DNA from: Halolamina sp. CBA1230
GTDB lineage: Archaea; Halobacteriota; Halobacteria; Halobacteriales; Haloferacaceae
DNA length: 64,000 nt
Assembly: GCF_002025255.2 (NCBI RefSeq)
Contig: NZ_CP054587.1
Coordinates: 1,550,001 to 1,614,000, forward strand
Direction: 5' to 3'
The translations under genes were made by a program, and so were the position numbers. Below are positions 8,122 to 56,287 of this stretch, piece after piece; within the stretch, counting starts at the first letter, position 1, and each line of letters opens with the position of its first letter. The notes under the pieces are model-generated. The model was given only the letters and a program-made list of their open reading frames with translations. It searched no databases and had not been told where the DNA came from.

Positions 8122-9423
8122 ATGCAGGATCGAACTTACGCGACGGACGTGGACGCCGGCGAGTCGGCCACGGTGGCCGGCTGGGTCCACGAGATCCGTG
8201 ACCTGGGCGGCATCGCCTTCCTCATCCTCCGGGACAAGAGCGGCAAACTCCAGATCAAACTCGAAAAGGACGAGATGGACGACCAGCTGGTCGAGACCGG
8301 CCTCGACGTCCACCGCGAGTCGGTGATCACGGTCACCGGCGACGTGAAGGAAGAACCGCGGGCACCGACCGGCTTCGAGCTCGTCCCCGAGTCGATCGAC
8401 GTGATCTCGGAGGCCGACCCCGAACTCCCGCTCGACCCCTCCGGCAAGGTCGACGCCGAGCTCCCGACGCGACTCGACAACCGGACGCTCGACCTTCGCA
8501 AGCCCGAGGTCAAGGCGATCTTCGAGATCCGCGCAGAGGTCATGCGCGCCGCCCGGGAGACGTTCCGCGACCTGAACGCAACGGAGATCAACACGCCGAA
8601 GATCGTCGCCACCGGCACCGAGGGTGGGACGGAGCTGTTCCCGATCACCTACTTCGGCGAGGAGGCCTTCATGAACCAGAGCCCGCAGCTGTTCAAGCAG
8701 CTGATGGCCGGCTCCGGCCTCGAGACCGTCTTCGAGATCGGCCCGATCTTCCGCGCCGAGGAGCACAACACCCCCCGCCACCTGAACGAGGCGACCTCGA
8801 TCGACTTCGAGTCGGCCTTCGCGGACCACCACGAGGCGATGGACGCCGCCGAGGAGATCGTGGTCTCGGTGTACGAGGCTGTCGCGGAGAACTGCGAGGA
8901 GCAGCTCGACCTGCTCGGCTACGAGGAGTTCGACGTGCCGGCGGGCGACTTCCCGCGGCTGAGCTACGAGGAGGCGATCGAGCGCGTCAACGCCACCGGC
9001 GAGCTCGACGAGCAGCTCGTGTTCGGCGACGACCTCTCGACGGAGGCCGAGCGCGCGCTGGGCGACGACGTCGGGACGTTCTACTTCATCACCGGCTGGC
9101 CCAGCGAGATCAAGCCGTTCTACATCAAGGACCAGGACGACGACGACTCGCTCTCGACGGGGTTCGACATGATGCACCCCCGGATGGAGCTGGTGTCGGG
9201 CGGCCAGCGTGAGCACCGCCACGAGAAGCTGGTCGAGGGGTTCGAGCAGCAGGGGCTCGACCCCGAGCAGTTCGAGTACTACACGAAGATGTTCAAGTAC
9301 GGGATGCCGCCCCACGCCGGCTGGGGGATGGGTGGCGAGCGGCTCGTGATGACGATGCTCGGGCTGGAGAACATCCGGGAGGCCGTCCTGTTCCCGCGGG
9401 ACCGGCAGCGTCTGAGTCCGTAG
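8122..9423 (+). CDS. aspS: Aspartyl-tRNA synthetase, archaeal type, non-discriminating signature
   Basis: Class II synthetase (433 aa) that charges tRNA-Asp. The N-terminal OB-fold binds the anticodon. Motif 2 '[15 protein letters not shown]' and motif 3 '[10 protein letters not shown]' are intact. Compared with the discriminating Thermococcus enzyme (Trp26, Lys85), this protein has His23 in 'GWVHEIRD' and Pro82 in 'RAPTGFE'. That pair is known for archaeal AspRS that also charges tRNA-Asn, with Asn made later by GatCAB. The relaxed specificity is inference. The 3' end ([10 protein letters not shown], stop) is followed by two degenerate copies of itself. Confidence 0.96.
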
Positions 9424-9579
9424 GACGAAGACCTGGCGAGACGCGAGACGAAGTCTCGCGGAACCGGCAGCGACTGAGCCCCTAGGGCGAGGGAGCAACT
9501 GTCGAGCGGGAGTCAGAGGAACGAGCGAAGCGAGTCTCTCGTGTTCCCGCAGGATCGTCAACGTCTGGCGGAACAGTAG
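9395..9579 (+). repeat. Three successive copies of the aspS 3' end
   Basis: The true aspS end (9395-9423) is followed by a degenerate copy at 9457-9485. Both begin CGCGG, share ACCGGCAGCG and end in TAG, with about five mismatches over 29 nt. A third copy at 9541-9579 reads VFPQDRQRLAEQ and then TAG, and it differs from the true end mostly at synonymous codon positions. Such arrays form when integrating elements use the 3' end of a conserved gene as attachment site and carry a replacement end. Integration is inferred, and no integrase gene remains nearby. Confidence 0.75.
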
Positions 9580-9719
9580 ATGGTAGCGCGAGTCCGTTGC
9601 TCAGTTTCGACTCCAGATCGACGCATTCGGGTTCGGTAAGTAGCTACTGCGTCTGTATCAATATCGGGGTCAACGCCTGGTCCTCACGAACACACTAAGC
9701 TCGGCAAAAGCTGCCGTGA

Positions 9720-9875
9720 TTACTTTTGCTCATCAACTATCTGGCTCCCGAGTGCTGCCCCAATACCACCGCCCAAGACGGCGAAAAGGATACCGCCCGG
9801 CACACCAAACAGAAGTAACCCCCCTACTAAGCCGAACAGAAGGAAGAACAGGAACGGGACTGGGTGAAAGTTCAC
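9720..9875 (-). CDS. 51-aa hydrophobic glycine-zipper peptide
   Basis: A short frame starting at GTG 9873-9875 behind a good Shine-Dalgarno (AGGGGTGA, 3-4 nt before the start). It encodes VNFHPVPFLFFLLFGLVGG, then a hydrophobic stretch with GVPGGILFAVLGGGIGAALG, ending IVDEQK. It should form two short membrane helices packed through GxxxG motifs. The composition is AT-richer than the surroundings and it sits just beyond the aspS-end copies, so it may be cargo of a decayed element. A perfect palindrome lies upstream at 9896-9916. Function unknown. Confidence 0.6.
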   Translation of the reverse strand: MNFHPVPFLFFLLFGLVGGLLLFGVPGGILFAVLGGGIGAALGSQIVDEQK

Positions 9876-9895
9876 ATTTTCACCCCTTTATCTTA

Positions 9896-9916
9896 GAATC
9901 AAAATTGTTTTGATTC
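9896..9916 (-). promoter_or_regulatory. Perfect 9+3+9 inverted repeat upstream of the 51-aa gene
   Basis: GAATCAAAA, then TTG, then TTTTGATTC: a perfect palindrome 21-41 nt upstream of the GTG at 9875. Its location suits an operator or promoter element for the small peptide gene. It could alternatively be a terminator for the convergent hemolysin-type gene, but it lies almost 200 nt beyond that stop codon. Confidence 0.5.
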
Positions 9917-10112
9917 GGTTCACTGTACTAACCGCTACGCCAACCCTCTATATTCAGCCGTAATTCTTCGGAACCCTTTGCGCGAAGAAACCCTGACCAA
10001 CGGCTTGTACGGCGGAGAACCACCTGTCGGCGGGACGAACGAACTGAGGCGAGAGTACGTCCCGGTTTCTCTCGAGTTTCGGCGGAACACCCACAACCCC
10101 AAGCGTCGCCGA

Positions 10113-11519
10113 CTACTCCGTGTCGGCGGCGTCGACGTCCGTCTCGGCGATCTCCTCGTCGACCTCGTCGGAGTCGTCGTCCTGGTAGTACTCCTCGGTC
10201 ACCGTCACCCGGGCGCGCTTGATCCGGGTCGTTTCGACCTCTTCGACGCGGATGCGGACGCCGTCGTACTCGATCGTCTCGTCCTCCTCGACCAGGCGGC
10301 CGGCGCGGTTGAAGATGAACCCCGCGAGCGTCTCGAACTCCTCGCCCTCCGGGAGTTCGAGGCCCAACGCCTCGTTCACTTCGTCGATGTTGACCTCGCC
10401 GCGGATGAGGGCGGTGTCGTCGTCGAGGAACTCGATCGCCTCCTCCTCGTCGCCCTCCAGGATGTCGCCGACGATCTCCTCGACCATGTCCTCCAGCGTG
10501 ATCAGCCCCTCCGTGGTGCCGAACTCGTCGATCACGATCACCATCTGGAGGCGGTTGTCCTGGATCTCCTGGAGCAGTTCGTCGACGTTCTTCGACTCGG
10601 GGACGTGGAGGGTCGGCCGGACGACATCCTCGAGCTGGGGCTCGCCCTCGCCGTAGTGGGCTGCCCGCACCAGATCCCGAACGTTGACGATCCCGATGAT
10701 GTTGTCGAGGTTCCCCTCGTAGACGGGGATGCGCTCGTGGTCGGACTGGACACACTCCTCGATCGCCTCCTCGACGGTGGCGTCCTTCGGGACCGCGGTC
10801 ATGTCCAGCCGCGGGGTCATCACCTCCTTGGCGATGGTCCGGTTGAACCGGAAGATGCGCTGGAGCATCTCCCGTTCCTCCTCGTCGATGACGCCCTCGC
10901 GCTCCCCGGTCTGGATCATGTTCTGGATCTCGTCACGGGTGACGTAGGACTCCTCGATCGCCGAGCCGCCGCCGGTGATGCGGTTGATCACCTGCGTGAG
11001 GTAGTCGAACACGACGATCAGCGGGAGCAGCCCGCGCTCGGCCCACTTCAGCGGCCGGGCGATGCGCAGCGACCACGACTCGGTGTTCTCGACGGCGTAG
11101 GATTTCGGCGCGCTCTCGCCGAACAGCAGCACGACCGTCGTGATACCGAACGTCGCCGCCAGCACGGCCTGCCCGTCCGCGAGGTAGAAGCTGAACAGCC
11201 ACGTCGCGATCGAGGACATCGCGACGTTGGCGATGTTGTTCCCGACGAGGATCGTCACCAGCAGCCGGTGGGGGTCGTCGAGGAGGCTCTGAACCATGTT
11301 CGCGCCGGGAACGCCCTCCTCGACGAGCGAGTCGACCCGGTGGCTCTCGAGCCCGAACATCGCGATCTCCGACGAGGAGAAGAAGGCGGAGAACCCGATG
11401 AGGACGGCGATCATCGTGACACCGAACACCGTCTTGACCTCGATGGACAGCTGTCCGAGTGCCGGTAGCTGCAGAACGCCCCTGCTAAGAGCGGGGATGA
11501 CCGTGGGAAGCAAGCCCAT
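10113..11519 (-). CDS. DUF21/CBS/CorC-domain membrane protein (hemolysin-C / CNNM family)
   Basis: A 468-aa membrane protein related to CNNM/CorC magnesium exporters. The first about 190 residues form the DUF21 transmembrane domain ('FSAFFSSSEIAMFGLESHRV', 'ILVGNNIANVAMS', 'TTVVLLFGESAPKSYAV'). Next come a 'MTPRLDM' linker, a CBS pair ('VPVYEGNLDNIIGIV' region, 'VIVIDEFGTTEGLITLEDM'), and the CorC/HlyC C-terminal domain ('FLDDDTALIRGEVNIDEVNE', 'TLAGFIFNRAGRL'). An acidic Asp/Glu tail ends it. Mg2+ transport is inferred from the family, and no hemolytic role is implied. Confidence 0.92.
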   Translation of the reverse strand: MGLLPTVIPALSRGVLQLPALGQLSIEVKTVFGVTMIAVLIGFSAFFSSSEIAMFGLESHRVDSLVEEGVPGANMVQSLLDDPHRLLVTILVGNNIANVAMSSIATWLFSFYLADGQAVLAATFGITTVVLLFGESAPKSYAVENTESWSLRIARPLKWAERGLLPLIVVFDYLTQVINRITGGGSAIEESYVTRDEIQNMIQTGEREGVIDEEEREMLQRIFRFNRTIAKEVMTPRLDMTAVPKDATVEEAIEECVQSDHERIPVYEGNLDNIIGIVNVRDLVRAAHYGEGEPQLEDVVRPTLHVPESKNVDELLQEIQDNRLQMVIVIDEFGTTEGLITLEDMVEEIVGDILEGDEEEAIEFLDDDTALIRGEVNIDEVNEALGLELPEGEEFETLAGFIFNRAGRLVEEDETIEYDGVRIRVEEVETTRIKRARVTVTEEYYQDDDSDEVDEEIAETDVDAADTE

Positions 11520-41531: not shown

Positions 41532-41575
41532 CCCTAACCCCTACATTTATGACAGTACGAGACAATTATCAAAGT

Positions 41576-42880
41576 ATGGGTGAGGAAGCCACGAAGACGA
41601 TTCAGACGCGCCTTCACGTAGCGTCTGGTGAACGGTCGTGGCTTCACGATGCCCGCCTCGCCTCACGCGAGATCTTCAACGACAGCATCCGACTCAAACA
41701 ACAAGGGGACAATCGCACCGAGATACAGCGGGAGGTTGACCGCGACGACTTCTTGCGAAACAACAAGTGTGCGGTCGTCGGCAAAGCCCTCCAAACGTGG
41801 GACTCCTACCAATCGCTCAAAGAGTGGTGGGAGAATCAAGACGACCCTGATGGCGGCAAACCGACGCCGCCGAGTACGGACAAATCTGGTGCGTACCCGC
41901 TCGTGATGGCGCACACGGAAGGCTACCGCCTCACCGTGGACGACGACACGAGCCGCGTCCAGTTCCGCATCAGCCCGAAACCATACAAGAAGGTGAAGGG
42001 CCACCTGCGCGGCGAACCGGACGCAATGGGCGTGCTTCGAGACGCTATCACGTCGGATGAGGTGGATGTGGGGCAGGCCGAACTCCTGTACCGCGATGGC
42101 GTGTACTACCTACACGTCACGGTCACACGCGAGTTCGACGTGCCCGAACCTGATACCGCCGATACTGTGGTCGGCGTGGACATCAACGAGCGTAACGTCG
42201 CTCTCACTGCCCTTGACCGTGAGACGATGCGGACGAAGGGTACGCTCGTCCTCGACTACGGACGAGTGATACAGGAACGCCAACGCTACCACACCATTAC
42301 CACTCGCTGTCAGGAACACGGCAAGACGAGCATCCACCGGAAGCTCGGTGACAAGGAGGAACGGTTCACCGAGTGGGTACTCCATCGACTCTCCCGTGCT
42401 GTCGTGGAGTTCGCAGACCAGTTCTCGAACCCGGTTATCGTATTCGAGGATATGACCGGTATCCGCGACGAAATCAAGTACGGGTCGTATATGAACCGCC
42501 GATTGCACAAACTCCCGTTCCACAAGTTCGAGAAATTCGTATCGTACAAGGCGACGTGGCGGGAGATTCCGACGGATACGGTGGACGCTTACTACAACTC
42601 GAAGACGTGTTCGTGCTGTGGCGAGCGTGGGTATCGGCAGGGACGGCGGTTCCGGTGTACGAACGACGAGTGTGACGTGGCGCAAGACCACGCCGACCGG
42701 AACGCGTCGGTGAACATCGCGTGGCGCGAGACGGCGAAACTCGACGGTAACGAATCGAATTACCGGACTCACAAAACCCAACCGCAGGTTCGGTTGGTGC
42801 GTCTGTCCGGGTCGGGGCGTGTAAGCCGCCCAACCTCATCCCGTTCCCTCGCGGAACAGGGAGTGCTAGCGCACGGCTGA
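41576..42880 (+). CDS. tnpB: TnpB RNA-guided nuclease of the IS605-type element
   Basis: A 434-aa TnpB. RuvC-type acids are visible: D202 in 'VVGVDINERN', E291 in 'IVFEDMTGI' and D374 in 'DHADRNASVNIA'. A zinc ribbon 'CSCCGERGYRQGRRFRCTND' lies between the last two. TnpB proteins use a guide RNA from the element's right end to cut DNA next to a short motif. No stop or shift is seen, in contrast to the dead tnpA. ATG 41576 is preferred to 41549 because a TTTATG box sits 27 nt before it. Activity is inferred. Confidence 0.94.
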   Translation: MGEEATKTIQTRLHVASGERSWLHDARLASREIFNDSIRLKQQGDNRTEIQREVDRDDFLRNNKCAVVGKALQTWDSYQSLKEWWENQDDPDGGKPTPPSTDKSGAYPLVMAHTEGYRLTVDDDTSRVQFRISPKPYKKVKGHLRGEPDAMGVLRDAITSDEVDVGQAELLYRDGVYYLHVTVTREFDVPEPDTADTVVGVDINERNVALTALDRETMRTKGTLVLDYGRVIQERQRYHTITTRCQEHGKTSIHRKLGDKEERFTEWVLHRLSRAVVEFADQFSNPVIVFEDMTGIRDEIKYGSYMNRRLHKLPFHKFEKFVSYKATWREIPTDTVDAYYNSKTCSCCGERGYRQGRRFRCTNDECDVAQDHADRNASVNIAWRETAKLDGNESNYRTHKTQPQVRLVRLSGSGRVSRPTSSRSLAEQGVLAHG

Positions 42881-45153: not shown

Positions 45154-48100
45154 ATGGCTCAGACGGGGAACCAGGAACTCACCGAGCGGTTCATCCAGTT
45201 CTACCGGAACTACTACCGGGAGGAGGTGGGGAAGCTCGCACAGGAGTACCCCAACGAGCGCCGCTCGCTCTACGTCGACTACAACGACCTGTTCACGTTC
45301 GACCGGGATCTGGCGGAGGACTACCTCGCCAAGCCCGAGCAGATGCAGGAGTACGCCGAGGAGGCGCTCCGGCTGTACGACCTGCCCGCCGACGTGAGCC
45401 TCGGGCAGGCACACGTCCGCCTGCGCGGGCTCCCCTCGGAGCAGACCGTCGATATCCGGGACCTCCGGGTGCAGGACGACCACATCGGCTCGATGATCGC
45501 CATCCAGGGGATCGTCCGCAAGGCGACCGACGTACGCCCCAAGGTCACGGAGGCCGCCTTCGAGTGCCAGCGCTGCGGGACGATGAGCTACATCCCCCAG
45601 AGCGACGGCGGGTTCCAGGAGCCCCACGAGTGCCAGGGCTGTGAACGCCAGGGACCGTTCTCCGTCAACCACGACCAGTCGGAGTTCGTCGACTCCCAGA
45701 AGCTCCGGGTCCAGGAGAGCCCCGAAGGACTGCGCGGCGGCGAAACGCCCCAGAACATCGACGTCGACGTCGAGGACGACATCACCGGCGACGTGACTGC
45801 GGGGGATCACGTGACGGTGACGGGCGTGCTCCACATCGATCAGGTCACGCAGGGCCAGGAGAAGACCGCCCTGTTCGATCTCTACATGGACGGGGTGACG
45901 ATCGAGATCGAGGACGAGGAGTTCGAGGACATGGACATCACCGACGAGGACATCGCCGAGATCGTCGAACTCTCCAACGACCCCGACATCTACGAGAAGA
46001 TGGTCGGCTCCATCGCGCCGGCGATCTACGGCTACGACGAGGAGAAGCTCGCGATGGTGCTGCAGCTGTTCTCGGGCGTGACGAAGCATCTGCCGGACGG
46101 GTCGCGGATTCGTGGTGACTTGCACCTGCTCCTTATAGGGGACCCGGGTACCGGGAAGTGTCTCGACGGGGATACACGAGTGACGCTCTCAGACGGTCGT
46201 GAGCGGCCGATACGCGATATCGTCGAAGAGAACCTCGACGATCCGAAACCCGTCGACGACGGCGTCTGGGACGAGGTCGACTTCAAGGTGCCATCGATGC
46301 AGGCGGACGGACGGATCGAACCGCAGCGCGCGACGAAAGTCTGGAAGCGTGAGGCACCCGAGAAGCTCTACCGGATTCGAACCGCGAGCGGGCGAGAGGT
46401 CGAGGTTACGCCGTCACACCCGCTGTTCGTTCCGGCCGGTAGCGGCCCGAACGCGGTGCGAGCAGCCGAACTGGAAACGGGGCAGTTCGTTGCGGCCCCT
46501 CGAACAGTTCCCACAGTCAGCAACGACGAACTGGACGTCGAGTATCGCCGTTCGAAATCGTACAACGCCGTTCGGCTCGACTTACCTGAACAGTGGACGC
46601 CGTCGCTGGCTCGACTCGTCGGCTACATCGTCGCGGAAGGGTACGTCGAGCAGCGGCCGAACGCTACCGGGTTCGTCTCGGTCACGAACAACGATCGCGA
46701 AGTGCTGGACGACGTTGCTGACGCGCTCAGTGCGCTCGGCCTCAACTACTCCGAGCGCGAGCCTCACGAGGGGAAGGATGCCCGCGAGATCATCTGCTCG
46801 TCCGGTGAGTTCGTGAGTTTCCTCGGCTCGCTCTCCCCGGCTCTTCTCGAAGGCTCCGACTCCCAGCGAGTGCCGAACGCTATTAGCACGGCGAGCGATC
46901 GGACCAAGCGAGCGTTCCTCCGCGCGTTCGTCGAAGGTGAAGGCCACGTCGCTGCGAACGAACGCGAGATATCGATCGCGTCCATGAGTGAGGCACTCCT
47001 CGAAGACGTCCGATCGGTGCTTCTCTCGTTGGGCATCGGTTCACAACTGCAACCACGCGCGAACGGCAGCTACCGCCTGCGAATAAGCGGTGACGACTTC
47101 GGCGAGTACGTCGACCGAGTCGGGTTCGTCACGGAACGGAAATCGGTAGCCGTAGGCGATCACGCTGGAACGCCTGGTAACACGAACACGGACGTGATAC
47201 CGGTCGGTGGCGAACTCCGCTCCCTACGTGAATCACTCGGACTTACCCAGTCGGAGTGTGGACTTCCGCGTTCGACGTACCAGCACTACGAGCGAGGGGA
47301 CCGGAACCCGAGCCGAGAGAGCCTCCGAGCGGTCGTCGACGCTTTCGACGCCACGCTTCCCGAGGCACCGGTAGAAGAGCCCGTCGCTGCCGACGGCGGA
47401 TCGACGGTCCGCGAACGCGTCAAGAGTCTGCAGGCACTCACCGACGGCGATCTCGGCTGGGACCGAATCGAGTCCATCGAGAGTGTCGAACCTGACGACG
47501 AATGGGTCTACGACCTAGAGATCGAGGGGACTCATAACTACATCTCGAACGGTGTGGTTTCGCACAACTCCCAGATGATCTCCTACGTCGAACAGGTCGC
47601 CCCCCGTTCCGTCTACACCTCCGGGAAAGGATCGTCCGCAGCGGGGCTCTGTGTCACCGGCGACACGCTGATCCACACCACTGACGGGTTCACGCCGATC
47701 CGCGACCTCGCGACCGACCAGCACCCCGAGCCGGTCGACAAGGAGACGGCGGCGCCGACGGACCGCGAGCTGTACACCTACGACCGCGAATCCGGAGTGG
47801 TCGAGACCAGCGAGAGTTCACACGTCTGGCGGATGCCCGAGAAGCCCTGCCGACGGGTCGAGACGGCCCACGGGAAGGAGATCGAGGCCTCGACGAACAC
47901 GCCGCTTCTCGTCTGTGGCGCGGACGGGCTCGAGTGGAAGGAGATCTCGGAGATCGACGCCGGCGATCACGTGGCCGTCCCGTCGTACACGAACGTCGAG
48001 CGAACGTCGCCCGATCCGATGGCGTTCGTCGAGTTCACCGAAGAGAAACTGAAACCCAGCGAGGAGTCGGCAACGATGCTCGTCGACAGCCTCCGGGAGG

Positions 48101-50241
48101 AGTTCGGAACTCTCCGAGACGCGGCCGCGGCTCTCGATCTCCCGGAAGACTTCGTCTACGACTCGCTACGGAACCGCCACCTGCCCCAGGATCGCCTCGA
48201 CACCGTGCTCGACGCGATCGGCGCGGACCGCGAGGAGATCGATATCGAGCGGGCGATGCTCCGGCACGGCGGAGGTGTCCGAGTACCCGACAGTTTCGAC
48301 GCGGACCTCATGTACCTCGTCGGGTTAGTGTTCGGTGATGGCGACGTAACCGTCTCGCGGCGCGGCGGAAACCGCGGTCAGGTCCGCATCTCGAACAGCG
48401 ACGAGGAACTGCTTCGGGAAGCCGCGGAGATCATGGCCGAGAAGTTCGACAAGCGCCCGGAGATCGAGTACCAGGACGACCGCGTTCCCTGTATCCGCCT
48501 CCACAGCGCGACCGTCGCCCGCTTCTTCAGCAACGTCGGTGTCGAGTCACCCAAAGACGACATCGCACTCGATCCGCGACTCACGACTGCCGAACACGCC
48601 GACGCGTTCCTGCGCGGACTGTTCGACGCCGACGGATCGGTCTGTGGCCGCGACGACGGCGGATCGAGCGTGCAGTTCTCGACCGTCTGCTCACGGCTCG
48701 CCGAGCAGGTCCAACTGATGCTCGAAACGTACGGCATCCGCTCGCGGACGCGCGATCGCGACCGACGCGGGACGTACGAGCGTGCCGACGGCCACGAGAT
48801 CGAGTCCACCTCCGTACAGACCCACCTCGCGATCTACGGCACGGAACTGGACACGTTCGCCGAGGAGATCGGCTTCCGTTCGACCACCAAATCCGACGCG
48901 CTCTCGGAGATCGTCAAGGACGTTCCCCGCCGGGGAGAACGACTCCCAGTCGGGGACGCCCTCCTCCGTGCCGACGGTGCTGGCGGACCGTTCTACCAGA
49001 ATCTCAACCGCGGGGACAACCCGAGCCGGGCCCGCGCGAGGGAGATGCTCGGCGACCGTGACCTCGGCGACATCGAACCGATCGTCGAGGAGGCCGTCGA
49101 GGCCGACCTCGTCTGGGACGAAGTCGTCGCTACGGAGGACACCGGCGAGAAGGAAGTGTTCGACCTGACGGTGCCCGAGACGCACAACTTCCTCGGGAAC
49201 GGTCTCGTCACGCACAACACTGCGGCGGCTGTACGCGACGACTTCGGCGACGGCCAGCAGTGGACCCTCGAAGCGGGCGCGCTCGTGCTCGCGGACAAGG
49301 GGATCGCCGCCATCGACGAACTGGACAAGATGGATTCGGGGGACCGCTCCGCGATGCACGAGGGGCTGGAGCAGCAGAAGATCTCGGTCTCGAAGGCCGG
49401 CATCAACGCGACCCTCAAGAGCCGGTGTTCGCTGCTCGGCGCCGCGAACCCGAAGTACGGCCGGTTCGACCAGTACGAGCCCATCGGCGAGCAGATCGAC
49501 CTCGAGCCCGCGCTGATCTCGCGGTTCGACCTGATCTTCACCGTCACCGACCAGCCCGACCCCGAGCACGACAGCCGGCTGGCCGAGCATATCCTGAAAA
49601 CCAACTACGCCGGGGAGCTCCACACCCAGCGCCAGCAGAACCCCAACTCGGAGTTCACCGAGGAGGAGGTCGAGAACGTCACCGAGGAGGTGGCGCCGGA
49701 CATCGAGGCCGACCTGCTGCGGAAGTACATCGCCTACGCGAAGCGCAACGTCTACCCGACGATGTCCGACGAGGCCAAAGACGCGATCGAGGAGTTCTAC
49801 GTCGATCTACGGGCGAAAGGCGCCGACGAGGACGCCCCCGTCCCCGTCACCGCCCGGAAGCTGGAAGCGCTGGTTCGGCTCGCGGAGGCCTCCGCGCGGG
49901 TCCGGCTCTCGGACACCGTCGAGGAGCAGGACGCGGACAAGGTGATCGGGATCGTCCGGGACAGTCTGGAGGACATCGGCGTCGACCCCGAGACCGGGGA
50001 GTTCGACGCCGACGTGGTCGAGACGGGCACCAGCAAGTCCCAGCGCGACCGGATCAAGAGCGTGAAGGCGCTGATCAGCGACATCGAGGAGGAGTACGAC
50101 GAGGGCGCGCCGGTCGAAGAGGTGCTCGACCGTGCCGGCGAGGTCGGGATGGACGAGGACAAAGCCGAGAAGGAGATCGAGAGCCTGCGCAAGAAGGGCG
50201 AGCTGTACGAGCCCGTCCAGGGCCACCTCCGGACGACGTAG
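45154..50241 (+). CDS. mcm: MCM replicative DNA helicase with two inteins
   Basis: The hexameric helicase that unwinds DNA at the fork. The 1695-aa precursor becomes about 702 aa after removal of two inteins (residues 336-805 and 833-1355). The N-terminal OB/zinc domain contains 'CQRCGTMSY' and 'CQGCERQGP'. The AAA+ domain has Walker A 'GDPGTGK/S', Walker B 'IAAIDELDKM', sensor 1 'SLLGAANPKYG' and the Arg finger 'LISRFDLIF'. The C-terminal winged helix ends 'SLRKKGELYEPVQGHLR'. Intein 1 lies between Lys and Ser of Walker A, so no ATPase is formed before splicing. ATG 45154 starts the family core ('MAQTGNQELTERFIQFYRNY'). Confidence 0.97.
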   Translation: MAQTGNQELTERFIQFYRNYYREEVGKLAQEYPNERRSLYVDYNDLFTFDRDLAEDYLAKPEQMQEYAEEALRLYDLPADVSLGQAHVRLRGLPSEQTVDIRDLRVQDDHIGSMIAIQGIVRKATDVRPKVTEAAFECQRCGTMSYIPQSDGGFQEPHECQGCERQGPFSVNHDQSEFVDSQKLRVQESPEGLRGGETPQNIDVDVEDDITGDVTAGDHVTVTGVLHIDQVTQGQEKTALFDLYMDGVTIEIEDEEFEDMDITDEDIAEIVELSNDPDIYEKMVGSIAPAIYGYDEEKLAMVLQLFSGVTKHLPDGSRIRGDLHLLLIGDPGTGKCLDGDTRVTLSDGRERPIRDIVEENLDDPKPVDDGVWDEVDFKVPSMQADGRIEPQRATKVWKREAPEKLYRIRTASGREVEVTPSHPLFVPAGSGPNAVRAAELETGQFVAAPRTVPTVSNDELDVEYRRSKSYNAVRLDLPEQWTPSLARLVGYIVAEGYVEQRPNATGFVSVTNNDREVLDDVADALSALGLNYSEREPHEGKDAREIICSSGEFVSFLGSLSPALLEGSDSQRVPNAISTASDRTKRAFLRAFVEGEGHVAANEREISIASMSEALLEDVRSVLLSLGIGSQLQPRANGSYRLRISGDDFGEYVDRVGFVTERKSVAVGDHAGTPGNTNTDVIPVGGELRSLRESLGLTQSECGLPRSTYQHYERGDRNPSRESLRAVVDAFDATLPEAPVEEPVAADGGSTVRERVKSLQALTDGDLGWDRIESIESVEPDDEWVYDLEIEGTHNYISNGVVSHNSQMISYVEQVAPRSVYTSGKGSSAAGLCVTGDTLIHTTDGFTPIRDLATDQHPEPVDKETAAPTDRELYTYDRESGVVETSESSHVWRMPEKPCRRVETAHGKEIEASTNTPLLVCGADGLEWKEISEIDAGDHVAVPSYTNVERTSPDPMAFVEFTEEKLKPSEESATMLVDSLREEFGTLRDAAAALDLPEDFVYDSLRNRHLPQDRLDTVLDAIGADREEIDIERAMLRHGGGVRVPDSFDADLMYLVGLVFGDGDVTVSRRGGNRGQVRISNSDEELLREAAEIMAEKFDKRPEIEYQDDRVPCIRLHSATVARFFSNVGVESPKDDIALDPRLTTAEHADAFLRGLFDADGSVCGRDDGGSSVQFSTVCSRLAEQVQLMLETYGIRSRTRDRDRRGTYERADGHEIESTSVQTHLAIYGTELDTFAEEIGFRSTTKSDALSEIVKDVPRRGERLPVGDALLRADGAGGPFYQNLNRGDNPSRARAREMLGDRDLGDIEPIVEEAVEADLVWDEVVATEDTGEKEVFDLTVPETHNFLGNGLVTHNTAAAVRDDFGDGQQWTLEAGALVLADKGIAAIDELDKMDSGDRSAMHEGLEQQKISVSKAGINATLKSRCSLLGAANPKYGRFDQYEPIGEQIDLEPALISRFDLIFTVTDQPDPEHDSRLAEHILKTNYAGELHTQRQQNPNSEFTEEEVENVTEEVAPDIEADLLRKYIAYAKRNVYPTMSDEAKDAIEEFYVDLRAKGADEDAPVPVTARKLEALVRLAEASARVRLSDTVEEQDADKVIGIVRDSLEDIGVDPETGEFDADVVETGTSKSQRDRIKSVKALISDIEEEYDEGAPVEEVLDRAGEVGMDEDKAEKEIESLRKKGELYEPVQGHLRTT
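46159..47568 (+). other. MCM intein 1, in the Walker A motif
   Basis: 470 residues, from Cys ('CLDGDTRVTL') to 'VVSHN' before Ser. Block B is 'TPSHPLFV'. Two LAGLIDADG-type motifs appear as 'GYIVAEGYVE' and 'AFVEGEGHVA', with Glu as the catalytic acid in both. After them comes an Xre-like HTH ('SLRESLGLTQSECGLPRSTY' and 'QHYERGDRNPSRESLRAV'). GC and third-position use are lower than in mcm and intein 2, so it is likely the younger of the two. Confidence 0.95.
47650..49218 (+). other. MCM intein 2, with unusual block B
   Basis: 523 residues, from Cys ('CVTGDTLIHT') to 'LVTHN' before Thr, interrupting the motif 'GSSAAGL/TAAAVRDD'. LAGLIDADG motifs 'VGLVFGDGDV' and 'RGLFDADGSV' have the standard Asp residues. 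The block B position reads 'ASTNTPLLV', lacking the usual His of T-x-x-H. HTH-like segments stand before ('TLRDAAAALDLPEDFVYDSL') and after ('GGPFYQNLNRGDNPSRARAR') the endonuclease. Its composition resembles the host gene, suggesting long residence. Confidence 0.95.
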
Positions 50242-50366: not shown

Positions 50367-50642
50367 GTGGACCACATCTCCGCGCTGCGCAACATCGAGG
50401 AAGCGTTGCGGGCGTTCGAGGACGGCGAGGCCGACCTGGCGACCACCCAGCGCCGCGTGCAGTCGGTGCTCCAGAGCTACGCCACCGAGTTCGAGGCCGA
50501 GACGCGCCGGCCCTACCGAGCCCACGGCGAGGCGCCGGCCGACGGTGTCGTCGTGGTCGCGCCGGACGCCGAAACCGCCAGCGAGCGCGTCGAGGCGCTC
50601 GCCGACGCCGAGTCGGCGTCGTTCGACGTCGAACCGCTCTGA
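50367..50642 (+). CDS. Conserved small haloarchaeal protein
   Basis: A 91-aa protein from GTG 50367: 'DHISALRNIEEALRAFEDGE', 'ADLATTQRRVQSVLQSYATE', then 'DGVVVVAPDAETASERVEAL'. It has a helical first half and an alternating beta-alpha second half. It begins the run of genes after mcm and is in the same direction. I recall similar proteins next to mcm or HTR-like genes in other haloarchaea, but no function is known. The upstream in-frame ATG at 50337 is less likely, since the conserved start is at 'DHISAL'. Confidence 0.7.
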   Translation: MDHISALRNIEEALRAFEDGEADLATTQRRVQSVLQSYATEFEAETRRPYRAHGEAPADGVVVVAPDAETASERVEALADAESASFDVEPL

Positions 50643-50713
50643 CTGTTCTCACGACTGAAAAGTCGAAAAGGCTTTGTTACCACCGTGTCACGATACAGCA
50701 GAGAGGCACGCCC

Positions 50714-51361
50714 GTGACTGCAACGCAGACCGACGAGACGCTATCCGAACGCTTGACGGGCGCGAACAGCACCCTGCTCCTCACCTCGTCGTTCACCGAC
50801 GAGGAACACTGCGCGGAGCTCCTCAACCCGGACGCCGCTGCCGAGACGAACGTGCTCTGGGTGTCCTACACCAAATCCCCCGACAAACAGCTCCGGCGCT
50901 GGCGCGAACACACCGACGAGCGGCCGGCGGAGATGGGGATGGTGAGCGTCGAGGACTCCACGCGCTCGGTCGCCGCCGAGACCGGGGGGAACGGCGGTCC
51001 CGGGGGCCCGTCGCTTCCGGAGACGAACGCACCCGTCGAGACGGTGAACAGTCCGAACGATCTGACCGGGCTGGGCATCCGTATGACCGAGTTCCTCACC
51101 GACTGGGAGGGGAACGACAACCGAACCGTCGTCTGTTTCGACTCGCTGACCGCGCTGCTGCAGTACGTCGAACTCGAGACCGCCTACGAGTTCCTCCACA
51201 TCGTCACCGGCCGGATGGCCAAGACCGACGCGTTCGCCCACTTCCACATGGATCCCGAGGCCCACGACGACCAGACCGTCGCGATCGTCACGAGCCTGAT
51301 GGACGCAGTCGTCGAGGTCGACGCGAACGGCGAGAGAAGTATCCGGACACGCAAGTCTTAA
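50714..51361 (+). CDS. HTR-like (RecA-fold/DUF835-type) protein
   Basis: A 215-aa protein resembling the haloarchaeal HTR-like family. 'NSTLLLTSSFTDEEHCAELL' and 'ETNVLWVSYTKSPDKQLRRW' form the N-terminal beta-alpha part. A Gly-rich loop ('ETGGNGGPGGP') follows, then a RecA-like core ('RTVVCFDSLTALLQYVELET') and 'DAFAHFHMDPEAHDDQTVAI'. A P-loop lysine is not evident, so ATP binding is unlikely. It starts at GTG 50714. Possibly a signal-coupled regulator; function is unproven. Confidence 0.75.
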   Translation: MTATQTDETLSERLTGANSTLLLTSSFTDEEHCAELLNPDAAAETNVLWVSYTKSPDKQLRRWREHTDERPAEMGMVSVEDSTRSVAAETGGNGGPGGPSLPETNAPVETVNSPNDLTGLGIRMTEFLTDWEGNDNRTVVCFDSLTALLQYVELETAYEFLHIVTGRMAKTDAFAHFHMDPEAHDDQTVAIVTSLMDAVVEVDANGERSIRTRKS

Positions 51362-51386
51362 TTTCCTCAGCGTGTAGCAGCATCCA

Positions 51387-51725
51387 ATGCTGCTGGTCGC
51401 GACGTACTCGAGAGGGGCACGGACGAGTCTGCGGAACGTCTGTCGAAGCCACGAGGGGACCACGGTCCGGCAGTTCGGCCGGGCGGCGCTGCTCGCGGAA
51501 ACGGAGTTCGGGGCGTTTCTCGCCCTCCGCCTGCGGGAGAAACACGGCGACGACGTCCAGATCGAACGCACCGAGCCGCTGAACGAGTTCGCGTCGGTTC
51601 CCGCGCCGGTGCGCGAGGCCGCGACGGCGTACGAGTCCCGGGACCACCGGAGCACGCCGTATCCGAAGTTCGCGGCCGGCACCGACCACCCCGATCCCGG
51701 AGCGATGCAGGATCGGGAGCTCTGA
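51387..51725 (+). CDS. Conserved haloarchaeal protein of the post-mcm cluster
   Basis: A 112-aa protein: 'LLVATYSRGARTSLRNVCRS', 'GRAALLAETEFGAFLALRLR' and 'RTEPLNEFASVPAPVREAAT', ending in a Pro/Asp-rich tail. It looks like a compact alpha/beta domain. Its TGA overlaps the next gene's ATG by one base (TGATG), and it starts 25 nt after the HTR-like gene, so it belongs to that operon. Family unnamed to me. Confidence 0.72.
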   Translation: MLLVATYSRGARTSLRNVCRSHEGTTVRQFGRAALLAETEFGAFLALRLREKHGDDVQIERTEPLNEFASVPAPVREAATAYESRDHRSTPYPKFAAGTDHPDPGAMQDREL

Positions 51726-52555
51726 TGCGGGTCGTCGCGGAGGGCGGGGAGCGAACAGTCGCCGACGGCCGCGCGGTCGACCTCCGGGAGATGTCGTACT
51801 CGCCGGAGACGGTCCGGACGGCGATACGGAACGAGAGCACGGTGCTGGCGGTCGACTGTCCAACCCCGTCGCGGTGGTGGGAGCAGCTCGGCACCCCGGA
51901 CGACGACACCGAAGCGCTCTCCCGGATCGTCGCCGCCGCACGCTCCCGAGGCCACCGACCGCCCGTCGAACGCGCGCTGGCTGCCGCGGAGCGAGAGCTG
52001 CAGAAGCTCACGGTCGAGGAAGTCGACACCACCTCGACGCGTCGGCGCCTCGCCGAGGCCGGGACCGAGGTCGAACGTCTCCGAGAGGCGGTCGCGAGCG
52101 CGCGCGGCCGGCTCCAGAGCCGCCAGGAGATGGACGCCGACACGACCGACGCCGAGGCGGCGCTCGGGGACGCCACCCGGCAGCTCTCGGAGGCCGAGAC
52201 CGAGCGCGTCGCCGCCGAACAGGCCCACGAGGCCGCACAGCGCCGCGCACGCGAGGCTCGTAAGACCCGCGAACGACGGCTCGAACTGCAGGACCGCGTC
52301 GCCAACCGTCGGCAGGAAGCCCGACGCGCGCTGGTGGAGGCGGTCGACGACGCGTTCGCGGCCGCCGTCGACGCCGTCCCGGGCGATACAACGCTCTCGA
52401 CTGACCCACTGGATGTCGAAGATGACGAGGTGACAGCGGCGCTCGCGGCGGTCCGGATCGCCGATCTCCGTGCGCCCGTCGTCGACGCGACGGGGCGGTT
52501 CGACAGCGCGGCGGCGGCCGCGGACGCGCTCGACGCAGCCGTGATCCGACTCTGA
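51725..52555 (+). CDS. Coiled-coil protein of the post-mcm cluster
   Basis: A 276-aa protein. The first about 75 residues make a small globular domain ('GGERTVADGRAVDLREMSYS', 'TVLAVDCPTPSRWWEQLGTP'). Residues about 90-220 are an uninterrupted charged coiled coil ('VERLREAVASARGRLQSRQE', 'QAHEAAQRRAREARKTRERR'), and the end is a small helical domain ('FAAAVDAVPGDTT'). This may be an SMC-like dimerising scaffold working with the MinD ATPase downstream. Translationally coupled to the preceding gene. No enzyme motif. Confidence 0.75.
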   Translation: MRVVAEGGERTVADGRAVDLREMSYSPETVRTAIRNESTVLAVDCPTPSRWWEQLGTPDDDTEALSRIVAAARSRGHRPPVERALAAAERELQKLTVEEVDTTSTRRRLAEAGTEVERLREAVASARGRLQSRQEMDADTTDAEAALGDATRQLSEAETERVAAEQAHEAAQRRAREARKTRERRLELQDRVANRRQEARRALVEAVDDAFAAAVDAVPGDTTLSTDPLDVEDDEVTAALAAVRIADLRAPVVDATGRFDSAAAAADALDAAVIRL

Positions 52556-52592
52556 CCGCGACCTTTTGGCGGAGTACGCAGCACTCCCACAG

Positions 52593-53318
52593 ATGGATAT
52601 CGACTGGACACAGGAGTCCGTTGCAGGGGTGACGCTGGTCCGCGCACGCCTCCGGAACGAGCGCGCGACCGACCGCCGAGTCAGTCTGCGGAACCGGCTC
52701 GACGGGCCCGTGCTCCCGCCACGTCGGCACGGCACGCCCGAAGCCGGCTGGGATCGCGGGGGCGTGACGACGGTCGTCCCCGCCGGCGACACCGTCGCGC
52801 TGGGGTACGCCTGTCCGGCAGCGACCGCCGAGCCCCCCGTAACTGTCGAGGAGGTCGACCCCGCCGACGGGAGTACGAGCGACAGTACGCCCGAAGCCGC
52901 CGTCCGTGATCTCGGCGATCACCGGCCGCCGCGGGCGGTGCTGGGCGGCGAGAACGACGGCGGGCGGAGGGAGCCGACTGAGTCGGACCCTCGATGCCCG
53001 ACGTCCGACGACGTTCCGAACGCGCCCGACGAACGCCAGAAACCCCAACGCTCGGCCTCGCTCCCCGACGACGCCGAGTCGCTCCTCGACCGGTACCGGA
53101 CGCGGATCCGGACCGCCGAGGCGCTGAACGCCGCCGGGATCGTCGAGGCGACCACGCTGCTGGACGCGAACGGCGGCCTCGGGGGCGTGGAATCGCTCGC
53201 GGTCGGCCTCGACGCCGACGCGCGGGAGCTTCGGACGGTGGCGCGGCTTGCGGACGCGCTGGCCGACCGCGCGGTGGCGACCGCCCCGCCGACCGACGCA
53301 CTCCGGAGGCTGTCGTGA
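52593..53318 (+). CDS. Conserved two-domain protein of the post-mcm cluster
   Basis: A 241-aa protein. The N-terminal half is a beta-sandwich-like domain: 'DIDWTQESVAGVTLVRARLR', 'TDRRVSLRNRLDGPVLPPRR' and 'TTVVPAGDTVALGYACPAAT'. A disordered acidic linker follows. The end is helical: 'LLDRYRTRIRTAEALNAAGI' and 'VGLDADARELRTVARLADAL'. Its TGA overlaps the MinD GTG (GTGA), so these two proteins are probably made in fixed ratio and may interact. ATG 52593 is chosen at 'MDIDWTQES'. Confidence 0.75.
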   Translation: MDIDWTQESVAGVTLVRARLRNERATDRRVSLRNRLDGPVLPPRRHGTPEAGWDRGGVTTVVPAGDTVALGYACPAATAEPPVTVEEVDPADGSTSDSTPEAAVRDLGDHRPPRAVLGGENDGGRREPTESDPRCPTSDDVPNAPDERQKPQRSASLPDDAESLLDRYRTRIRTAEALNAAGIVEATTLLDANGGLGGVESLAVGLDADARELRTVARLADALADRAVATAPPTDALRRLS

Positions 53319-53971
53319 TCCTGGCGGTCGCGAGCGGAAAAGGCGGCGTCGGGAAGTCGACGGTCGCGTACAACCTCGCGGCCGCGCTGGACGCGATCGT
53401 CGTCGACGGCGACCTCGGGATGGCGAACCTCCCGGCCGACCGCGGGCCGACGCTGCACGACGTCCTGGCCGGGCGCGCCGACCCACAGGAGGCCGTCCAG
53501 GCGGGGCCCGTGACCGTGCTCCCCTGTGGCCGCTCGCTGGCGGGCGCCCGCGCGGCCGACGTGTCGAACCTAGGCGACGCGCTGGCTCCGGTCGAACGCG
53601 AGCACGGAACCGTCGTGATCGACTGCCCCGCCGGACTGCGCGCGGACGTGGGCGTGCCGCTGGCGGTCGCTGACGCCGCCGTCGTCGTCGCCGCGCCGGA
53701 GCCGTTCGCGCTCGCGGACGCGCTCCGCACCCGGGAGCTGGCCCGGGAACTCGACGCGCCGCTGTCGGCCGTGGCGCTGAACAGGGTGGTCGACGACCCG
53801 CCGACGCCGACGGTCCGCTCGGCGCTCGGCGCGCCCGTGGCGTCGATCCCGGCCGACCCGCGGCTCGGCCGCTCGATCGAGGCCGAGGAGCCGGTCGTCG
53901 ACGCCGCGCCGGCGAGCGAACCCGCGGCCGCGGTCTCGTCGCTGGCGGCGCAGGTCGAACGGAACAGTTGA
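53315..53971 (+). CDS. MinD/ParA-family ATPase
   Basis: A 218-aa SIMIBI ATPase with a deviant Walker A 'ASGKGGVGKSTVAYNLAAAL' complete with both lysines, 'VVDGDLGMANLPADRG' as the switch region and 'GTVVIDCPAGLRADVGVPLA' as Walker B. It is short and lacks an obvious C-terminal membrane-targeting helix. Archaeal MinD homologues place chemotaxis and motility proteins at poles; this member's cargo is unknown. GTG 53315 overlaps the previous stop. It ends 18 nt before the convergent tfb end. Confidence 0.9.
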   Translation: MILAVASGKGGVGKSTVAYNLAAALDAIVVDGDLGMANLPADRGPTLHDVLAGRADPQEAVQAGPVTVLPCGRSLAGARAADVSNLGDALAPVEREHGTVVIDCPAGLRADVGVPLAVADAAVVVAAPEPFALADALRTRELARELDAPLSAVALNRVVDDPPTPTVRSALGAPVASIPADPRLGRSIEAEEPVVDAAPASEPAAAVSSLAAQVERNS

Positions 53972-53989
53972 TTCGAGAAAGCCGCGGGG

Positions 53990-54844
53990 TCAGTCCTGTA
54001 GCGCCTGATACGTCGTCCGAACGGTGACAGACGTCACGTCGGCCACGGCGGCGGCCTCGGCCTGCGTGACCGTCTCGTTCTCGCGTCGGGCAGCGAGGTA
54101 GAGCGCGCCCGCCGCGACGCCGCCGGGGTTGCGCCCGTTGGCGTGACCCGACTCGACCGCTTCCTCCGCGAGGTCGCGGGCGCGCCGGCGGACCGCCTGC
54201 CCGAGGTCGAGTTCGCTGGCGAAGCGCGCGACGAACTCCGCGGGCTCGGCCGCCGAGACGGGCAGTCCGAGTTCGCGGTTCATCGCATCGTAGGCCGCAC
54301 GGTGTTCGTCGGCGGTGGCTTTCGCCGCGTCGAGCACCTCCGCAGTCGTGCGAGAGACGCCCGCGACCCGGCAAGCGGCGTACACCGCCGCGCTGGCGAA
54401 CCCCTCGATCGAGCGCCCGCGCAGCAGGTCCTCGTTCTGTGCGGACTCGAACAGCGAACAGGACTGGTCGCGGATGCGGTCGGGGAGTTCGAGCGCCCCC
54501 ATCAGCCGTCGGATCTCGGTGAACCCGTACACCTGATTGCGCTCGCGCTTCGAGCGGATCTGCGTCCGGCGGTGCTGACGGCGCAGGCGGGACCACTTGC
54601 GGTTCTTCCCGCGGCCGTCGCGCCCGATCTCCGTCGAGAGCCCCCGGTCGTGGCGGGAGCGAGTGAGCGGGGCGCCACACCGCGCAGGGTTGCGGTCGTC
54701 GTCCTCGAAGCTCCGCCATTCGGGGCCGCGGTCGAGCCGGTCCGTCGAGACGATCAGCCCGCAGCTCGCACAGACCGTCTCGTCGCCGTCGGCGGTCAGT
54801 CTCCCGTCGCATTCCGGACATCCCGTAGAGCGCGTCGTGCTCAT
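53990..54844 (-). CDS. tfb: Transcription initiation factor IIB
   Basis: A 284-aa TFB that brings RNA polymerase to TBP-bound promoters. Zinc ribbon 'CPECDGRLTADGDETVCASC' is at residues 9-28. The B-reader/linker 'WRSFEDDDRNPARCGAPLTR' follows, with 'GLSTEIGRDGRGK'. Two cyclin-like repeats start about 'FTEIRRLMGALELPDRIRDQ' and 'SAAEPAEFVARFASELDLGQ'. Haloarchaea have many TFBs with different promoter sets; this one cannot be ranked. ATG 54842-54844, with a TACATAAAC element about 25-30 nt before it. Confidence 0.94.
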   Translation of the reverse strand: MSTTRSTGCPECDGRLTADGDETVCASCGLIVSTDRLDRGPEWRSFEDDDRNPARCGAPLTRSRHDRGLSTEIGRDGRGKNRKWSRLRRQHRRTQIRSKRERNQVYGFTEIRRLMGALELPDRIRDQSCSLFESAQNEDLLRGRSIEGFASAAVYAACRVAGVSRTTAEVLDAAKATADEHRAAYDAMNRELGLPVSAAEPAEFVARFASELDLGQAVRRRARDLAEEAVESGHANGRNPGGVAAGALYLAARRENETVTQAEAAAVADVTSVTVRTTYQALQD

Positions 54845-55013
54845 ACTCGAAGATCGGTCCCGATCGGATACATAAACCCGGGTGGTTCCGGGGGTTTCGG
54901 AGCCGATCCCGTCCGTCGAACGTACCGATTATCGGTACGTTCTCTGGCCGGCTCAGACAGATGATAGTTCAATAGCAGAAACGTTTAAACTATATCCCGA
55001 AGAACGGTCGCGT

Positions 55014-55511
55014 ATGACGCTCGAGGAGATCGCCGCCGGCATCGAGGTGACCGCCGAGCAGGAGGCCCGCGGCGTCGCCGCCGTCGACGAGACGGGCGAG
55101 GTGCTGGTCGAGCGCCTCCGTCCCCACGCTGGGGCGCTTCCCTGTACGCCGGAGGCGGCGGCGACGGTCGTCGAGACCCACGCGGCCGGGACGAGCGTCG
55201 GCAAGAGCGCACGCGAGGCCGGGGTCGCACCCGTGACGGCCGCGAAGGCGCTGCACCGCTGTGGCGTCTCGGGCGTGACGCCGCTGTCGCCGATGGCCCG
55301 CGAGATCGTCCGTAACTGGCAGGCCGGCGAACTCTCCCGTGCCGAGGCGCTCGAACTGACCGGCGCGAGCGAGGCGGAGTTCGCGCTGGGGAGCTACATC
55401 GAGAGCCACGACCCCGACCCGGAGCTGTCGGCCGCGGTCGCGGACGTCGGGAGCCCCACGGACGACGACCCGCTGGCCGACGCGGTCGGCGACGTCGACG
55501 AACTGTTCTAG
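55014..55511 (+). CDS. HTH-containing conserved haloarchaeal protein
   Basis: A 165-aa protein: 'TLEEIAAGIEVTAEQEARGV' at the start, a Cys-containing helical middle 'RPHAGALPCTPEAAATVVET', a HTH-like 'TSVGKSAREAGVAPVTAAKA' and 'REIVRNWQAGELSRAEALEL', and an acidic end. ATG 55014 follows a clear GTTTAAACTATAT box at 54982-54994, which supports a start there. It converges by 4 nt with the ParA-like gene. Probably DNA-binding; target unknown. Confidence 0.75.
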   Translation: MTLEEIAAGIEVTAEQEARGVAAVDETGEVLVERLRPHAGALPCTPEAAATVVETHAAGTSVGKSAREAGVAPVTAAKALHRCGVSGVTPLSPMAREIVRNWQAGELSRAEALELTGASEAEFALGSYIESHDPDPELSAAVADVGSPTDDDPLADAVGDVDELF

Positions 55512-56287
55512 TCGCGCAGCGAGTCCACCGCCTCCACCAGTCCGCCCTCCGCGAGCGGCAGATCGAGCTCACGGTCGAGAACGGCGTCGGCAGCGACGGC
55601 GAGCGCGTCGACTCCCGCCTCGGTCTCGAGGCCGGCGGGCGTCCCCGCGTCGAACTGGGGGAGCACCGCGTCGGCGTCGTTCTCGGGGAACGCCGCCGCG
55701 CCCGTGCGGTCGACCGCGACCACCGCGTCAGCGCTCGTCTCGACGTCCTGCAGGCGACCGCGGAGCATCTGCGCCGCGTCGACCCCACGTTCCGAGGCCG
55801 GAGTGACGACGGCGACCCGTTCGGCGGCCGTGACGGCCGCGACCGCCGGGTTGGAACCCAGCGGCGGCGTGTCGACCAGCACGCGGTCGAACTCGCTCGC
55901 CGCCTCGTCGATCCGGCGTTCCAGTTCCTGAGCGGCCTCGGCTGTCTTCGCCCGTGCGAGTCGCTCGAACGGCGCCCGAGCCGGGAGGCAGGCGATCCGC
56001 CCCGGCTCGGGGAGTTCGTCCGTATCGAGCGCGGCGCGCTCGGCGTCCGGTTCGTACTCGACCAGCGCCTCGGCGAGCGGTCGGTCGCCCCCGTCGGTGA
56101 CGAGTTCGGTCATGTCAGGGTCGATCCGCCCCGAGAAGTGGCGGGCGAGCCCCTGCATGTCGTAGGCGGCGTCGACGACCGCCACGTCCTCACCGGCCGC
56201 CGCGAGTGCGCCAGCGAGTTCGAGACACGTTCGGGTCGTCCCTGTGCCGCCGGCCGCGCCGACCAGCGCCGCAGTCGTTGCCGACAT
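55508..56287 (-). CDS. ParA/MinD-like protein with degenerate P-loop
   Basis: A 259-aa protein with the ParA/MinD fold: 'ALVGAAGGTGTTRTCLELAG' at the Walker A position, 'EDVAVVDAAYDMQGLARHFS' at the switch and 'FDRVLVDTPPLGSNPAVAAV' at Walker B. The canonical KGGxGK(T/S) is replaced by AAGGTGTTR: both lysines are gone and Thr/Arg stand in their place. ATP binding is thus doubtful or altered. It may serve as a pseudo-ATPase partner to the MinD at 53.3 kb. ATG 56285-56287. Confidence 0.85.
   Translation of the reverse strand: MSATTAALVGAAGGTGTTRTCLELAGALAAAGEDVAVVDAAYDMQGLARHFSGRIDPDMTELVTDGGDRPLAEALVEYEPDAERAALDTDELPEPGRIACLPARAPFERLARAKTAEAAQELERRIDEAASEFDRVLVDTPPLGSNPAVAAVTAAERVAVVTPASERGVDAAQMLRGRLQDVETSADAVVAVDRTGAAAFPENDADAVLPQFDAGTPAGLETEAGVDALAVAADAVLDRELDLPLAEGGLVEAVDSLRD

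Follow-up and report, generated by a model that had tools for sequence, protein, structure and literature searches.

ATPases of the ParA family usually have their partner protein encoded alongside, in the same operon, and in the ParAB, McdAB, MinDE and SegAB systems an ATPase with a deviant Walker A motif is coupled with a lineage-specific small protein (PMC8262871). In Haloferax volcanii, motility needs MinD2 (HVO_0595) and MinD4 (HVO_0322), and the motility of the quadruple minD mutant is that of minD2/minD4 (PMC11588486). According to a 2024 study, no clear MinE-like partner is known for the MinD proteins of this organism (PMC11621097); for MinD2, the operon neighbour HVO_0596 has been proposed as partner. 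I consider here a different member of the family, MinD1, and the gene directly upstream of it, DUF7857, in a window of 64,000 nucleotides (nt) from the haloarchaeon Halolamina sp. CBA1230 (contig NZ_CP054587.1, positions 1,550,001 to 1,614,000), where both stand in a row of genes that begins with mcm, the gene of the replicative helicase (Table 1). The pair resembles ParAB, McdAB, MinDE and SegAB in joining a deviant Walker A ATPase to a lineage-specific small protein, and it parallels the pair of MinD2 and HVO_0596.

The MinD of the window is, by position, the orthologue of H. volcanii MinD1 (HVO_0225). The mcm gene of that organism is HVO_0220 (PMC7776575), and exactly four genes lie between mcm and MinD1 in the Haloferax loci L142, L144, L146 and L147, so that DUF7857 should be HVO_0224. 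Pfam numbers the families DUF7854 to DUF7858 consecutively, in parallel with the order of the genes, and assigns them no function. Neither these families nor HVO_0221-0224 are named in any paper of the literature searched, in agreement with the initial annotation of this DNA, which had been made from the letters alone and knew of no role for any member of the row.

Profiles made from the genes of the window were used to search 60 loci of 20 kb each, with DUF7856 as anchor, and a further 80 named ones, with DUF7855 as anchor, which may overlap the first set in species; phylogenetic profiles were drawn from 194 genomes of Halobacteria. DUF7855 and DUF7856 thus served to select the loci.

The profile of MinD1 separates its clade cleanly, members scoring at least 226 bits (bar one truncated copy) and other MinD proteins at most 150; as compared to MinD2 and MinD4, it is a separate, shorter clade, always found with DUF7857. 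In the 194 genomes, DUF7857 lies directly upstream of 143 of the 145 MinD1 genes and on the same strand, the two exceptions being a MinD1 at a contig end (G146) and one accompanied by a DUF7857 too divergent for Pfam and recovered by a local profile (G128). Both families are present in 141 genomes and neither in 47, MinD1 occurring alone in one (G128 again) and DUF7857 alone in five. The stop codon of DUF7857 overlaps the start of MinD1 in 104 of 108 pairs, as it does in the window (GTGA, 53315-53318). Relocation, too, takes both genes together: the pair sits away from mcm in many genomes, has been relocated intact in G013, G065, G135 and G141, and is present in some 30 genomes that lack DUF7854 and DUF7856, where it is likewise intact. 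A few genomes (L196 in G160, G058 and G140) carry a second, short-type DUF7857-MinD1 pair away from mcm.

MinD1 belongs to the MinD/ParA superfamily, both by motif and by the overall fold that its sequence indicates. The deviant Walker A motif KGGxGK[ST] is present in 108 of 109 orthologues and is intact in the window (KGGVGKS), and the best matches in the PDB are archaeal MinD proteins (1hyq, E 4.5e-25). The copy in the window scores 147.6 bits against the curated archaeal MinD family TIGR01969, under its cut-off of 201.75; MinD1, as the literature calls it, is an outlying branch. The alignment of the clade ends at the last helix, beyond which the tails vary in length and sequence, and no conserved membrane-targeting tail, such as the amphipathic one of bacterial-type MinD, was found.

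DUF7857 consists of a conserved N-terminal domain, containing the motif RLDGPVxPPRRxGVPxxGWD, and, in its long form, a C-terminal helical domain. Sequence searches of Pfam, NCBIfam and the PDB detected no likeness between it and ParB, McdB, MinE or SegB (the DUF7857 profile found no significant match in the PDB), and comparison with the partners of ParA and MinD proteins found in it no DNA-binding or membrane-targeting part. Above the cut-off, it occurs in none of 85 genomes of the phylum outside the Halobacteria. The ten genes scanned included no match to the MinC or MinE families.

An adjacency of this kind, with 143 of 145 genes side by side and presumably co-transcribed, is what a ParA-type ATPase and its cognate partner present. 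Together with the joint relocation of the two genes, it makes DUF7857 the best candidate for the partner protein of MinD1. The interpretation that I hold to be probable, taken as a whole, is that mcm stands in a locus of old date, shared across the haloarchaeal class and assembled from separate translationally coupled gene pairs, and that DUF7857-MinD1 is the best-defined functional unit in it, an ATPase with a dedicated partner coupled on one leaderless message. MinD1 would dimerise with ATP and, because a conserved membrane-targeting tail is absent, would be located in the cell through a partner or the nucleoid rather than by direct binding to the membrane. By analogy with other partners of ParA and MinD proteins, DUF7857 would bind MinD1, control its ATPase cycle and link it to a cargo, for which the first candidates would be the DUF7855-DUF7856 pair or a complex linked to MCM.

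Several observations weigh against this interpretation. H. volcanii without all four minD genes grows and divides normally (PMC11588486), so that any role of MinD1 would be subtle or conditional, and the functions of MinD1-3 are undescribed in the literature on that organism. The gene of DUF7857 lies upstream of that of the ATPase, whereas the usual position of a partner is downstream. Four Natronomonas-type genomes (G036, G037, G049 and G098), searched whole, have DUF7857 but no MinD1 anywhere, and DUF7857 may therefore have a role independent of MinD1; the fifth genome with DUF7857 and no MinD1 holds a fragment of DUF7857. The co-occurrence counts are uncorrected for phylogeny. Finally, the TATA-like boxes described below are read from sequence, and the one ahead of DUF7857 in the window is weak.

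DUF7855 and DUF7856 form a second obligate pair, usually adjoining the gene of the replicative helicase. DUF7856 never occurs without DUF7855 (both in 119 genomes, DUF7855 alone in four), and its start overlaps the stop of DUF7855 in 87 of 132 loci, in the window as TGATG (51723-51727). The two persist without MinD1 in some lineages, DUF7856 doing so in eight genomes, and the trio DUF7855-DUF7856-DUF7857 is retained in the loci L127 and L140 and in the four Natronomonas-type genomes.

The AlphaFold2 model of DUF7856 (predicted local distance difference test, pLDDT, 96) is an antiparallel hairpin with two coiled-coil arms, residues 102-135 and 141-206, on a small alpha/beta head formed by both termini. 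The likeness to SMC and Rad50 lies in this predicted hairpin that brings two ends into one head, and the difference in the Walker A motif: GxxxxGK[ST] was found in none of 140 DUF7856 sequences. Foldseek ranks SMC heads among its top matches (best E 0.039, with low template-modelling scores), and matches found by VIA-align lie mainly in the coiled coil, residues 76-207. With the Walker A motif missing and the fold matches lying mainly in the coiled coil, I do not count DUF7856 as an SMC. DUF7855 is highly conserved, and its model (pLDDT 91) has a ferredoxin-like core, beta-alpha-beta-beta-alpha-beta, over residues 1-64. The matches to that core are generic only (VIA Z up to 7.4). Nucleases of the Cas2/VapD type are recognised by a catalytic aspartate after the first strand; in DUF7855 the conserved sequence LLVVTYS stands in its place, and the protein shares with them the generic fold only. 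A search of viral contigs for DUF7855 gave pattern matches but no relatives, and PDB sequence searches with the profiles of DUF7855 and DUF7856 gave no significant match.

Beyond the two pairs, the 60 loci share a conserved block that begins with mcm and ends with the second ParA-like gene. In 31 loci from six other families, mcm is present within range in 28, DUF7854 in 28, DUF7857 in 28, MinD1 in 27, the gene of the TFB transcription factor in 26, DUF7858 in 25 and the second ParA-like gene in 20. The genes flanking the block are nearly absent from the same loci (upstream genes in 0-3, UDG in 0, PRPP synthase in 5, an HVO_0234-like gene in 2), and so the edges of the block are sharp. The conservation of gene order is well beyond chance and beyond the background of flanking genes, a strong outcome of the test of neighbourhood conservation across Halobacteria that the initial annotation had itself proposed. 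In the 194 genomes, DUF7854 (PF25252) occurs in 119, DUF7855 in 123, DUF7856 in 119, DUF7857 in 146 and MinD1 in 142. One locus, L065 (G099), has a truncated DUF7856 and has lost DUF7857, MinD1, TFB and DUF7858 before the ParA-like gene; the gap resembles a single deletion, and congeneric relatives retain those genes.

Within the block, the spacing of genes is uneven. The gap between mcm and DUF7854 has a median of 0 nt and is at most 30 nt in 98 of 117 loci (about 125 nt in the window). DUF7854 in turn is never within 30 nt of DUF7855 (0 of 121 loci), and DUF7856 overlaps DUF7857 in just 2 of 116. When base composition is averaged across loci in the 70 nt ahead of the genes, a sharp A+T peak appears at -30 to -24 ahead of DUF7855 (131 loci; consensus TTTAATT) and another at -30 to -26 ahead of DUF7857 (107 loci; consensus TTTAAAT), and none is seen ahead of DUF7856 or MinD1. 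Such peaks, at about -28, are expected of the TATA box that precedes a leaderless message in haloarchaea. The box ahead of DUF7857 is much clearer in relatives than in the window, and it recurs in several of the relocated DUF7857-MinD1 pairs.

From the spacing, the internal TATA-like boxes, the relocations and the patterns of loss, the row splits into three pairs, mcm-DUF7854, DUF7855-DUF7856 and DUF7857-MinD1, which I read as separate transcription units. The initial annotation had described five genes running in one direction from mcm to MinD, with two stop/start overlaps, and had seen in them a possible chromosome-organising or cell-cycle module. All of the genes it named are present, TFB, DUF7858 and the second ParA-like gene following MinD in that order, and both overlaps exist (at 51725 and 53315). 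The shared strand also stands, with five genes between mcm and minD and thus six when MinD is counted. The gene order holds but not the continuity of the run, which, given TATA-like boxes ahead of DUF7855 and DUF7857, is probably not one operon. Likewise, the neighbourhood of the supposed module is conserved, but its genes divide into the three pairs.

Two other explanations of the block have to be weighed, each of which I consider unlikely. The genes from mcm to MinD1, perhaps with TFB and the second ParA-like protein, may after all be one module, acting in chromosome organisation or in positioning coupled to replication, and the coiled-coil protein would then be its cargo or tether. The order up to the second ParA-like gene is kept in the six other families while the flanks are not, and the phylogenetic profiles of DUF7854, DUF7855 and DUF7856 match closely. 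Moreover, the long DUF7857 is found mainly together with DUF7856 (106 of 119, as against 1 of 9 without it), a trend that is uncorrected for phylogeny and falls short of strict tracking, given the exceptions of G123 and of short forms beside DUF7856. In one Natronomonas-type genome (L075 in G036, 9205-10863, minus strand), DUF7856 and DUF7857 share one open frame of 553 codons, a single case that is possibly a fusion or a lost stop. What speaks against a single module is the internal TATA-like boxes, the many genomes with DUF7857-MinD1 away from mcm, the occurrence of that pair without DUF7854 and DUF7856 and of DUF7856 without MinD1, and the health of the quadruple minD deletion.

It is just as doubtful that the block is a frozen neighbourhood, made of pairs with unrelated jobs that are kept together by low rearrangement of the mcm region or by co-expression. 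Separate TATA-like boxes and separable pairs would suit such a view, as would the conservation of the tail of genes in opposing orientations (TFB, DUF7858, the second ParA-like gene and the HIT gene). However, the mcm region is not generally frozen, since the immediate neighbours of the block are hardly ever retained, and DUF7857 and MinD1 remain paired after they leave the region.

A more specific proposal, that MCM, DUF7854, a DUF7855-DUF7856 hairpin complex and DUF7857-MinD1 make up a replication-linked positioning system, in which MinD1 acting through DUF7857 and the coiled-coil complex would position replisomes or replicated chromosomes, is improbable, and a chromosome or cell-cycle role for the locus, though possible, stays a guess from the neighbourhood of mcm, because the pairs are separable and the quadruple minD deletion has no growth or division defect.

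Table 1. Genes and putative promoter elements of the block in the window.
Feature	Position	Strand	Remarks
mcm, replicative helicase	45154..50241	+	Carries two large inteins; the conserved block is anchored on it
DUF7854, small protein	50367..50642	+	GTG start at 50367 backed by family consensus
HTR-like DUF7504 protein	50714..51361	+	Between DUF7854 and DUF7855
TATA-like box TTAATTT	51358..51364	+	29 nt ahead of DUF7855 start
DUF7855, 112 amino acids	51387..51725	+	First in DUF7855-DUF7856 pair
DUF7856, coiled-coil protein	51725..52555	+	
Weak TATA-like stretch CTTTTGG	52564..52567	+	About 28 nt ahead of ATG 52593
DUF7857	52593..53318	+	ATG 52593 preferred; alternative start TTG 52566
MinD1, MinD/ParA-type ATPase	53315..53971	+	
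TFB transcription factor	53990..54844	-	Own conserved TATA-like box
DUF7858	55014..55511	+	Open reading frame from 54882; conserved part and probable start at ATG 55014; own TATA-like box
Second ParA-like protein	55508..56287	-	

The remaining genes of the region add the following. The HTR-like gene, whose product the initial annotation had taken for a RecA-fold sensor, is optional, standing at its place in 46 of 126 loci, and a Walker A motif, as expected of a RecA/KaiC-type NTPase, was found in none of 50 orthologues; its Pfam matches are only DUF7504, DUF7090 and a sub-threshold DUF835. I therefore drop it as a core sensor. From the second ParA-like protein the P-loop lysine is missing in each of the 77 relatives that could be read (GGxG[TAVG]T), and this protein may be a pseudo-ATPase. 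In this respect it resembles the deviant ParA proteins of the BcsQ/McdA type, which lack P-loop lysines: like BcsQ (RGGVGTT), it has GGxGTT without the catalytic lysine, but no cellulose or carboxysome genes lie nearby, and the similarity is to the ATPase fold only. The gene of the HIT protein follows it on the minus strand. The intein content of mcm differs between loci, a variability already known for haloarchaea (PMC10643990), and upstream of mcm lies an apparent TnpB/OrfB-like transposon protein (41549-42880, plus strand), named from its sequence alone.

The locus bears on two questions, the organisation of polyploid haloarchaeal chromosomes and the function of MinD1. For the second it offers, in DUF7857, which accompanies MinD1 in essentially every genome, a concrete and directly testable candidate for the partner.

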